A DNA stretch of 64,000 nt. Origin: Paludisphaera rhizosphaerae. Lineage in GTDB: Bacteria > Planctomycetota > Planctomycetia > Isosphaerales > Isosphaeraceae. Shown here piece after piece: positions 37,600 to 45,854 of this stretch (its first letter is position 1; each line of letters begins with the position of its first letter). The notes below the pieces were generated by a model. It had not been told where the DNA came from and did no database searches. It was given only the letters and a program-made list of their open reading frames with translations. The translations under genes and the position numbers were made by a program. The stretch lies in NCBI RefSeq assembly GCF_011065895.1, contig NZ_JAALCR010000003.1:310001-374000 (forward strand), in the 5' to 3' direction.

Positions 37600-37672
37600 G
37601 CCCTCCTAGCTCAATTGGCAGAGCAGCTGACTCTTAATCAGCGGGTTGTAGGTTCGAGTCCTACGGGGGGCA
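37600..37672 (+). tRNA. tRNA-Lys (anticodon CTT)
   Basis: All elements of a cloverleaf are visible: acceptor GCCCTCC at 37600-37606 pairs with GGGGGGC at 37665-37671; D arm GCTC-AATTGGCA-GAGC; anticodon stem GCTGA/TCAGC with loop CTCTTAA and anticodon CTT; T arm GTAGG-TTCGAGT-CCTAC. The discriminator base is A. The last 46 nt are repeated at 45809-45854, marking this gene as an integration site. Confidence 0.93.
37627..37672 (+). repeat. attL-like repeat in tRNA-Lys
   Basis: The 46-nt 3' part of tRNA-Lys (starts CTGACTCTTAATCAGCG, ends GGGGGCA). Compared with 45809-45854 it shows two substitutions (G/C at each) in 46 positions. Identity drops after GGGGGCA, as expected for an att core ending at the tRNA end. 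Confidence 0.8.
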
Positions 37673-37851
37673 CTTTAACATCATGCGAGCAAATGACTTA
37701 GGGAGAGAGGCCGCCCGAAGGAATTAAGGGGTGGCAGTGAAACTCGCCCAATCTCGCCCTTAAGTGCCTGTCAAGGCAGTATTTCTGCTGACAGCAAAAC
37801 TCCGGGCCGTTGAGTCGCCTGTGGTTGCTGATCCTTTGCCGACGGCTACTA

Positions 37852-38869
37852 GAGCGCCGACCTATCGCATCGCGTACATTGTGCGGGAATTGAACCAGCC
37901 GACGATGTCTTGCGGTGTGATGATGCTTGCGCAAGGCGTCGCCGATCGCGTCGATCACGGCGTCAGTCGAGCGGGCCGCGGCCGACCTCAGCTCGCCCTT
38001 CAGCTTCGAGAACATCTCCTCGATCGGCGAGAAGTCGGGACTCGAGGTGGGCAGCGGGATGACCTCCGCTCCGGCTCGGTGGACGGCCTTCAGCACCGCG
38101 GCCGCCTTATGCGGCGACACGTTGTCCCAGATCACGACGTCGCCGCGATGCAGCCGCGGGGCCAGGACCTTCTCCGCGTAAGTCTCGAATGCGGCGGCGT
38201 CGGTCGCCCCCCGGAACACGAACGGGGCCGTCGCGCCACGGAATCGCAGGTCGCAGATCAGCGTCAGCGTCGTCCACGACCGTGGGGCCGCCGCCTCCAC
38301 TCGCCCCCCCTCGGGGGCGCGGCCGTAGGCCCGCGTCATCGACGTGTTCGCCCCGGTCTCATCCACGAAGACGAGGCGCCTCGGGTCGACGCCCGCCGCC
38401 GCCTCGAGGAACGCCGTGCGTCTCTCGCGACCCTCGGGCGTGTCGCGTTGGGCGTCGTGGAGGACCGTCTTCTTGCGGGTGATCCTCAATCTCTTCAACG
38501 CCCGCGCCACGGTCGTGCGACCGCAGTCGACGCCCAGGCGGTCGCGGAGTTCGTCCAGGGTGGCGTCGGGTTGCTCGCGGACCAGCCCCCAGAGCCGCTT
38601 GAGGTCGTCGCCGCCAAGAACAGGGCGACGTCCGCCGGCGTGCGGCCTGGGATCGACCGAGCCGGTCTGGCGATACCGCTTCAGGAGCCGAACGATCGTG
38701 GAGACGTCGACGAGGAACCGCGCGGCGATCTCACGCAAGGAACTAAGGAACTCTCGCCAGCCGCCACTGTCGCCAGGATTCGCTCGCGAAGATCTTGAGA
38801 GTAGGGTCGCACGATGCACCTCCTGACTACCCTCCATTGTATTCAGGGCAATCCGATCGGTCGGCGCTC
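37852..38869 (-). mobile_element. IS630-family insertion sequence, 1018 bp, inactive
   Basis: The ends are matching terminal inverted repeats: GAGCGCCGACC at 37852 (continuing TATCGCAT) and the reverse complement of GGTCGGCGCTC at 38869 (GAGCGCCGACCGATCGGAT). The left and right ends are flanked by TA (37850-37851 and 38870-38871), the target duplication of IS630/Tc1 elements. So the element is complete in outline. It lies just inside the left end of the island, between the tRNA and the FHA gene. The transposase is broken (next entry). Confidence 0.85.
37862..38812 (-). pseudogene. IS630-family transposase, disrupted by two frameshifts
   Basis: DDE transposase, cut-and-paste type. The catalytic triad is present: FVDETGANTSM, VIWDNVSPHKA and PIEEMFSKLKG. 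The start is GTG at 38812, giving an N terminus VRPYSQDLRERILATVAAGESS that then leaves frame. An exact 8-bp tandem duplication, AAGGAACT at 38737-38744 and 38745-38752, shifts the frame; removing one copy restores SSLREIAARF. At the C terminus a second shift near 37918-37925 (a stretch of CATCATCAC) moves the true ending DIVGWFNSRTMYAMR into another frame, with a TAG at 37862-37864. The long uninterrupted frame to 37698 is therefore an artefact. Two independent shifts make it non-functional; programmed frameshifting would not explain the duplication. Confidence 0.85.
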
Positions 38870-44975: not shown

Positions 44976-45808
44976 GATGCACTCTCGACTTCGGCTCCGG
45001 GGTATGCGGTTACTCATCTAGATGTTGATCTGGGACTACTGCATGCCAATCTGAAACCCTAATTGGGAGCCACCAAGGAAGTCGTGGGAACGGATTTAGA
45101 GCTGTTGAGTGTGCGCCCGTGATCGGCGTAATAGGTATGAACGAGGAGATCGGCTATAGGTGTCGGACTCATCGGAGCCCGGCCCGAACTTCCTGTGCTA
45201 CGTGGGTGCGGCATGGCCCTGTCCATTGATCTCGATCGGCATTCCATCGAGAACGAGCTCAAGACGTGGAGGTCGCCCCGATCGCGACATATTCTGCCCT
45301 CTCGGTTCCGACGGCAGACCTTCGACAGGCGAACCTGGCGCAAGAGAGTCCACTGCCGTTCGGAAACTACAAATCGAAATTCTCTTCTTGTTACGAATCA
45401 TGGCCAGGTGAGTGTTGGGCCTCGAGAGGGATTCTATACACGCTTGCACGCATCAAATCATGCTTTAATGCGTGCTGTTCGGAGGGGCGAGGGTTAAGGA
45501 TAGAGAATCCGATAGTGGCCGCAGACTTTCGAGTGATGATCGCCGCCTGGGCTCCTCAGGCGGTCGGCCGAGAAACTCGCAAGGTGTAGGTCGAGCTAAG
45601 CGCTCCGATCCTGTACCACTCAATCGAGCGTGCCGCGAACAATCGCCAGGATGCCGGCGCGTACGGCCTTCGGGAGATCCGGCCAGACTTCGACGACCGA
45701 GAGTAGGTCGTGATCTATCGGACGAGTGTCGTCGGGCAATAGATGGGCAAGATTCGAGGAGGCGAGACGCAAGCGCCTTACAGATAGGCTATTACGGCAA
45801 TCCGTCTT
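44976..45808. other. Right part of the island, no gene seen
   Basis: About 830 bases between the kinase start and the right repeat, apparently lower in GC than the rest. No frame looks coding on either strand; fragments near 45660-45750 contain in-frame TAGs. I tested it by eye for an integrase and saw none. The kinase promoter should lie in its left part. Confidence 0.5.
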
Positions 45809-45854
45809 CTGACTCTTAATCAGCGCGTTGTAGGTTCGAGTCCTACCGGGGGCA
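45809..45854 (+). repeat. attR-like repeat: partial tRNA-Lys copy
   Basis: Forty-six nt that copy the 3' part of tRNA-Lys with two substitutions (see 37627-37672). The 5' half of the tRNA is absent, so this is not a functional tRNA gene. Confidence 0.8.

Follow-up and report, generated by a model that had tools for sequence, protein, structure and literature searches.

Very few integrative elements are described as having their attachment (att) site within the gene of their own integrase (PMC4701971). The same paper states that in Myxococcus phage Mx8 the attP site lies inside the tyrosine integrase gene, and that integration exchanges a 112-residue end for one of 13 residues and leaves a less active enzyme (PMC4701971); the specificity of this integrase is modified by integration, according to part of a second paper (PMC6070905). 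The suicidal integrases of the archaeal SSV1, pTN3 and pT26-2 also have the att site in the integrase gene, often at tRNA sites, and the gene is cut on integration; parts of the paper concerned describe this type as exclusively archaeal (PMC8371274). In streptococcal integrative and conjugative elements with serine integrases inserted in rumA, integration swaps the integrase C-termini (PMC4701971, in part). Islander islands, as defined in sections of PMC4383910, are bounded by a complete tRNA gene and a displaced fragment of it and must contain an integrase open reading frame (ORF); some integrases, those of Mx8 and SSV, extend across attP (PMC4383910). Here we analyzed an 8.2 kb block in a 64,000-nucleotide stretch of Paludisphaera rhizosphaerae DNA (the window, part of contig C3 in a genome of 8.05 Mb and 110 contigs). 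The block is most probably a decayed integrative element in a tRNA-Lys(CTT) gene, of a family which has its att site near the 3' end of the integrase gene.

Target tRNA and att repeat

The sole tRNA gene of the window, and the integration target, was identified by ARAGORN as tRNA-Lys(CTT) at positions 37600-37673 on the plus strand. In an earlier note on this DNA, made from the letters alone, the last 46 nt of this gene were reported to recur 8.2 kb away with two substitutions. This was confirmed, and the repeat was found to reach 50 nt. The copy at the tRNA (attL, 37627-37676, plus strand) and the displaced copy (attR, 45809-45858, plus strand), a tRNA-Lys 3' fragment, form direct repeat D1, with 47 of 50 bases identical (94%), direct orientation and a spacing of 8182. 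The repeat spans the 3' part of tRNA-Lys and the three bases after it; two mismatches lie within the first 46 nt and the third at 37673. When 59 genomes, including our own, were searched by BLAST with the tRNA-Lys end, the displaced copy scored E 2.9e-15 in its own genome. The GC content, which the earlier note had suggested comparing, was 0.622 between the att copies versus 0.678 in the 10 kb to the left and 0.668 in the 10 kb to the right.

A complete tRNA gene and a displaced 3' fragment in direct orientation, as called for by the Islander definition, are present in the window, while the interval holds an integrase tail alone and no integrase ORF. By a further test of our own, which is not part of that definition, relatives have at this tRNA either no such block or another one. 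The block is a remnant of a tRNA-targeted island and not a full member by the Islander definition.

The integrase tail at attR and in sister islands

The earlier note had seen no integrase, and this held for the body of the enzyme: the window gave no match at 25 bits, the cut-off used also for the sister islands and control stretches below, to a profile built from seven integrases, and PF00589 gave none on contig C3 at E 0.001, with 20 matches elsewhere in the genome. What the note had missed is a C-terminal integrase tail of 62 codons plus stop at 45620-45808 on the minus strand, recognized by translation and in frame with the att core. Its sequence is KTDCRNSLSVRRLRLASSNLAHLLPDDTRPIDHDLLSVVEVWPDLPKAVRAGILAIVRGTLD, with the stop codon at 45620-45622. 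It matched the tail profile with E 1.3e-29, a value to be read in the light of the window tail being itself one of the four rows (window, G001, G004 and G013) from which that profile was built. Genomes of the comparison set are designated by G, contigs by C and loci by L.

A tyrosine integrase adjoins tRNA-Lys in four islands of relatives, identified by Pfam in G001, G013 and G031 and by 70% identity to the G001 enzyme in G004. The G001 integrase matches PF00589 and not PF16795 at E 0.05. In G001, G004 and G013 the integrase frame enters the tRNA antisense through the att core; the last residues of the G001 integrase, RRTRTYNPLIKSQLLYQLS (ending ..IKSQLLYQLS), are encoded by the att core together with the 5' half of the tRNA. 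At the far att copy, the same frame runs after ..IKSQ into an open tail with a conserved end, which in G001 reads WPELPETIRGGILALVR. Such a tail is present at the att copies of G001, G004 (where the far copy is on another contig) and G013, with a weaker form in G049, and was not seen at the far copies of G031, G005, G009 and G016. The integrase ORF of G031 stops before the tRNA. The window island and those of G005, G009 and G049 gave no integrase-profile match, and that of G016 contains a remnant.

The conserved tail is about 60 amino acids long, carries the motif ..WPxLPxAIRAGILAMVR.. and matched nothing in Pfam at E 0.05 or in NCBIfam and PHROG at E 0.01. In G004 a 252-aa ORF, cut at its own 5' end, reads continuously from integrase through core to tail and is the only continuous case seen. 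It probably represents a junction in a tandem array, and searches of plasmid and phage collections with it gave no match.

tRNA-Lys as an insertion hotspot

In at least eight of the 59 genomes, our own included, a copy of the tRNA-Lys 3' end lies downstream of the gene on the same contig within 36 kb. The distances are 8.2 kb in our genome, 16.6 kb in G001, 36 kb in G005, 2.7 and 5.3 kb in G009 (two copies), 14.2 kb in G013, 3.5 kb in G016, 14.4 kb in G031 and 2.1 kb in G049. Further copies were found on contigs without the complete tRNA; in G014 they lie megabases from it. Where compared, the genes between tRNA-Lys and the copy differ from relative to relative. To the left of the tRNA a UVR-motif gene was found at 10 of 13 loci compared; to the right, integrases excepted, few genes are common to the genomes.

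The layout of a tyrosine-recombinase island, proposed in the earlier note, is supported by seven relatives with 2.1-36 kb between the same tRNA and a 3' copy of it, and by the tyrosine integrase beside the tRNA in the islands of G001, G004, G013 and G031. That note had named the same block at the same place in all relatives, with att-like repeats also at non-tRNA sites, as grounds for rejection; ORFx, a gene of the block described below, had no match at the tRNA-Lys locus in the 15 other genomes searched. The comparison of this locus across relatives, also proposed there, revealed islands of other size and content and no clean empty allele. Among the matches listed, G002 and G003 have no second copy near the tRNA, but they were rejected as strict empty sites: their right-hand DNA differs and contains integrase-like remnants, and for this reason a hotspot is claimed rather than a clean empty allele. 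The deacetylase gene to the right of the island (45968-47023) was tried as a synteny anchor and discarded. It occurs in three of 15 other genomes, in none of them at the tRNA, and not in G001-G005, and is therefore no marker of an empty site.

Two loci with other arrangements were observed. On G009 C217 (L089:2837-8263) three tRNA-Lys 3' ends bound two cassettes, which are stacked, measure about 2.7 and 2.6 kb and gave no integrase-profile match. One carries a 344-aa protein without an NCBIfam or PADLOC family and the other a dCTP-deaminase-like protein (TIGR02274); past the third copy there are a type II methyltransferase and a restriction-enzyme-like gene. On G014 C5, megabases from the tRNA-Lys gene, two tRNA-Lys-like 3' fragments (L094:2480-2520 and 17088-17143) lie 14.6 kb apart and enclose two ORFs of very great length (2223 and 1396 aa).

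Pairing of tails with integrases

The tail profile was searched in 40 genomes of the same genus, family and class at E 0.01 and matched 28 of them, a count in which the profile's own four rows match by construction. Our genome has three such tails, that of the window and two paired with integrases 12.5 and 34.5 kb away. The element with integrase L011 (C8) measures 12.9 kb and has a 47-bp repeat (100%) at tRNA-Glu; that with integrase L007 (C14) measures 35.4 kb and has a 62-bp repeat (95%). The earlier note had recommended a search for integrases elsewhere in the genome, and L007 and L011 are the closest two among the 20 PF00589 matches; both belong to elements at other sites. The note had left open whether the element is decayed or moved in trans. 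Because the tail is stranded at attR and these two integrases sit in elements at other sites, decay is the better supported.

Of 19 tail segments, 10 have a direct repeat and an integrase of this type, which shares the strand of the tail and lies 3' of it at the opposite end. The repeats of these ten pairs overlap tRNA genes of seven types (Glu, Phe, Met, Ser, Cys, Arg and, twice, Lys); the remaining two have no tRNA called, and one of these is just 19 bp. In nine of the ten pairs the integrase reads into the junction in the frame of the tail, where chance would give one in three. Ten control stretches on the 5' side of the tail (20 kb each, 8 kb in one), taken from nine of the ten pairs and from G013 C15, a further pair by position, yielded no integrase; there was no room for a control at G019 C117. 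The att core lies within the integrase frame in sister elements only (nine of ten), the window lacking the body. Judged from the sequences of sister elements, integration would replace the integrase C-terminus, of which exchange the window would retain the tail half only.

The tail-type element of G016 C31 (L171) occupies tRNA-Arg; here the tRNA stands at the tail end and reads in the sense direction, and hence both tRNA orientations occur. A second tail of G016, beyond the integrase, was rejected as a partner, since it is out of frame with that integrase.

Wider sample of tails

Scanning of named genomes with the tail profile gave 47 loci, most of them labelled Planctomycetota (Pirellulales, Phycisphaerae, Gemmataceae, Isosphaeraceae and others). 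A few carry the names of other phyla, perhaps through wrong binning or as false matches. These loci were combined with 30 loci of the 40-genome search and near-identical tails were removed, resulting in 73 distinct tails, among which doubtful ones such as L231 were retained. A perfect antisense T-arm was present within 170 bp upstream of the tail in 33 of the 73, as against 190 of 7300 random 170-bp stretches from the same loci. Between T-arm and tail the tail frame stays open in 32 of the 33 cases, compared with 7 and 9 for the other two frames. An earlier count with a stricter T-arm pattern (18 of 50 loci versus 110 of 10000 control stretches) has since been replaced by this one. Three tail loci were found on viral contigs, one of them with a T-arm, at 151 bp. 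In Adhaeretor mobilis the tails (L212, L213 and L220) are preceded by a common peptide like GAECGAxGAQ, which also occurs in other Pirellulales loci.

Gene content of the island

The left arm beside the tRNA (37677-37727) was recognized by blastn and alignment; similar DNA follows tRNA-Lys ends at three sites in G009 and one in G019. Counting the window, L089 and L097, this arm stands directly after tRNA-Lys ends in three genera, at five sites in 59 genomes at the sensitivity used. About 170 bp directly after the tRNA show no integrase similarity and are followed by an IS630-type element on the minus strand (37850-38871; PF13358, DDE_3, 1.9e-25), with terminal inverted repeats at 37850-37873 and 38848-38871 (I2, 88%) and a transposase ORF at 37698-38837. 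This element occupies the place of the integrase in sister islands. No other full copy was found in the genome, which has two short partial matches.

Four cargo genes follow. A protein with two FHA stretches is encoded at 38934-40271 on the plus strand (PF00498, 6e-32, scanned from an earlier start at 38814), followed on the minus strand by an M48-type metallopeptidase (40247-41404; PF01435, 1e-12), ORFx (41425-42456, with an earlier in-frame start at 42675) and a serine/threonine protein kinase (42471-45017; PF00069, 1.9e-47). ORFx, to which no function was assigned, had no match in Pfam, NCBIfam, PADLOC or PHROG-type family scans; it matched at E 0.001 in 15 of 16 genomes including our own, many of the matches being distant. 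A defence role of the cargo was considered and set aside, the PADLOC matches of the kinase being kinase models such as PD-T4-6 across the kinase domain.

Homologs of the FHA, M48 and ORFx genes cluster away from tRNA-Lys in G002, G005, G028, G009 and G031, joined by a kinase homolog in G002, G005 and, more weakly, G031. The coherent gene set described in the earlier note was thus recovered in five relatives, three of them with the kinase; it does not account for the whole block, which also holds the IS630 element. In these relatives the cluster lies in stretches without a tRNA found; the cargo is therefore not island-specific, and was rejected as a marker of the element.

The approximately 0.8 kb between the kinase gene and attR holds the integrase tail and, at 45446-45475, a short imperfect inverted repeat. 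To the right of attR an older integrase remnant was found on the minus strand (45859-45954), which resembles the linker region of the G001 integrase. The tblastn match falls into two pieces with 75% and 50% identity, of which the first extends over the core as well, and by blastn it is like DNA beside the tRNA in G001, G003 and G004 (72-86%).

Proposed mechanism

In the circular element a single gene would encode, in this order, catalytic domain, linker, att core and conserved tail (about 60 amino acids). Recombination with the tRNA gene would cut this gene at the att core. The catalytic part would stay at the tRNA end and gain a short new C-terminus, which in the tRNA-Lys islands would be read antisense from the 5' half of the tRNA, and the tail would be stranded at the far end of the integrated element. 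By analogy with Mx8, the swap may change the activity of the enzyme. The window retains tail, core and right flank and has probably lost the integrase body at the tRNA end, where an IS630 element and a left arm like that of another element type now stand. Since the right end of the window island is of the tail type and the left end is not, the integrase would have been lost either by deletion near the IS630 element or by fusion of two elements. The island is probably immobile now.

Several results weigh against this reading. Nine of the 19 segments have no integrase at the far end: three have a repeat and no integrase of this type (the window, G049 and one G001 site, with a different integrase on the opposite strand), and six, with seven tails, have no att-like repeat in the range fetched, one of them with a 28-bit integrase-like match. 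The frames of the C14 pair differ at the repeat end used; the two repeat copies differ by 1 bp in length, and by hand calculation the frames agree when the other repeat end is taken. Among the integrases listed, which do not include the G001 integrase at tRNA-Lys, one lies within 60 kb of 17 of 40 tails, and the 19 pairs so formed show the predicted geometry in 10 cases and the other three geometries in 5, 3 and 1. A perfect T-arm is lacking in 40 of the 73 tails. A forward prediction for other genera, written down before the test and assuming that contig coordinates equal record coordinates, mostly failed. In Adhaeretor none of three tails had a PF00589 match within 60 kb, as opposed to Lacipirellula (one of one), with an integrase about 6.9 kb away on the 3' side and the same strand and a second about 5 kb away on the 5' side, the wrong one. 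No free element carrying the gene uncut turned up, the 252-aa ORF of G004 being the closest case. Finally, the left arm resembles another element type, and the two ends of the window island may therefore not belong to one element.

Alternative explanations

The last point leads to a composite origin, in which an older tail-type element was joined at the tRNA by an element with the G009/G019 left arm, and both were then fused by a deletion, perhaps involving the IS630 element, that removed the middle att copy and the integrase. The left arm is like that of the three G009 sites and the G019 site, all directly after tRNA-Lys ends, and a tail is present at the right end of the window and absent from two G009 copies and the G019 copies (L098 and L099). 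Stacking itself occurs in G009, where the two copies are some 2.7 and 5.3 kb distant from the tRNA, and in the window attR is followed on its right by the older integrase remnant. Against this, the left-arm match covers just 79 bp at 81% identity, the tRNA end included, and no middle att copy remains. Such an origin would refine the reading of a decayed tail-type element and is compatible with it; we regard it as quite conceivable, if somewhat short of an even chance.

The tail might instead be an independent small gene beside attR, such as one for a directionality factor, and not the end of an integrase. A methionine lies between the core and the conserved tryptophan in five of 12 tails, counting ATG-type starts only and not GTG or TTG, but seven have none there. 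The agreement of frames with the integrase (nine of ten), the path open in the tail frame (32 of 33, versus 7 and 9 in the others) and the continuous 252-aa ORF of G004 all point to an integrase end and make a separate gene unlikely.

An element that never had an integrase and was moved in trans by an enzyme recognizing tRNA-Lys ends would fit the stretches between tRNA-Lys copies without an integrase-profile match (two in G009, one each in G005 and G049; for PF00589 these were judged among the matches listed). It would leave unexplained the integrase tails stranded in the window and in G049; none of the 20 PF00589 matches of our genome lies on the window contig, and its two closest integrases, L007 and L011, belong to elements elsewhere, so that passive transfer appears improbable. 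A chance repeat, or plain duplication of a tRNA fragment without a mobile element, deserves practically no credence, because the displaced copy scores E 2.9e-15, 3' copies lie near the same tRNA in at least eight of 59 genomes and the copy adjoins an integrase tail.

Comparison with known systems

A decayed tail-type element thus remains the preferred reading of the window. Extending it, we suggest only tentatively that a tRNA-targeting integrase family with the att site in its own gene is found across the Planctomycetota, the tail being removed on integration and restored on excision, the new end mostly supplied by the antisense strand of the tRNA, and the swap acting as a built-in switch that senses integration. 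No description of a planctomycete integrase family of this kind was found among the papers listed in searches of open-access literature, which leaves out most subscription journals. If it exists, the stranded tail could serve in practice to mark the distal end of islands that have lost their integrase, as in the window, and the elements would provide numerous naturally paired enzyme forms, integrated and free, for the study of C-terminal swapping.

An attP site inside the integrase gene is already known from Mx8 and, in another form, from the archaeal suicidal integrases. The window shares with Islander islands the tRNA gene and its displaced fragment and differs in having the integrase tail alone. 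The streptococcal rumA elements differ from the planctomycete ones in using a serine integrase and a protein-coding target. The archaeal suicidal type is marked by Phage_integr_3 (PF16795), which the G001 integrase did not match, and by a cut between the N-terminal part and the catalytic domain; in the planctomycete elements these two parts remain together and intact, and the tail alone is lost.

In architecture the planctomycete elements resemble Mx8, for whose C-terminal swap both papers named above cite Magrini et al. 1999. In them, too, integration appears from sequence to replace the integrase C-terminus. They differ from Mx8 in using several kinds of tRNA gene, from which the new end is read, and in having a tail conserved across many elements.
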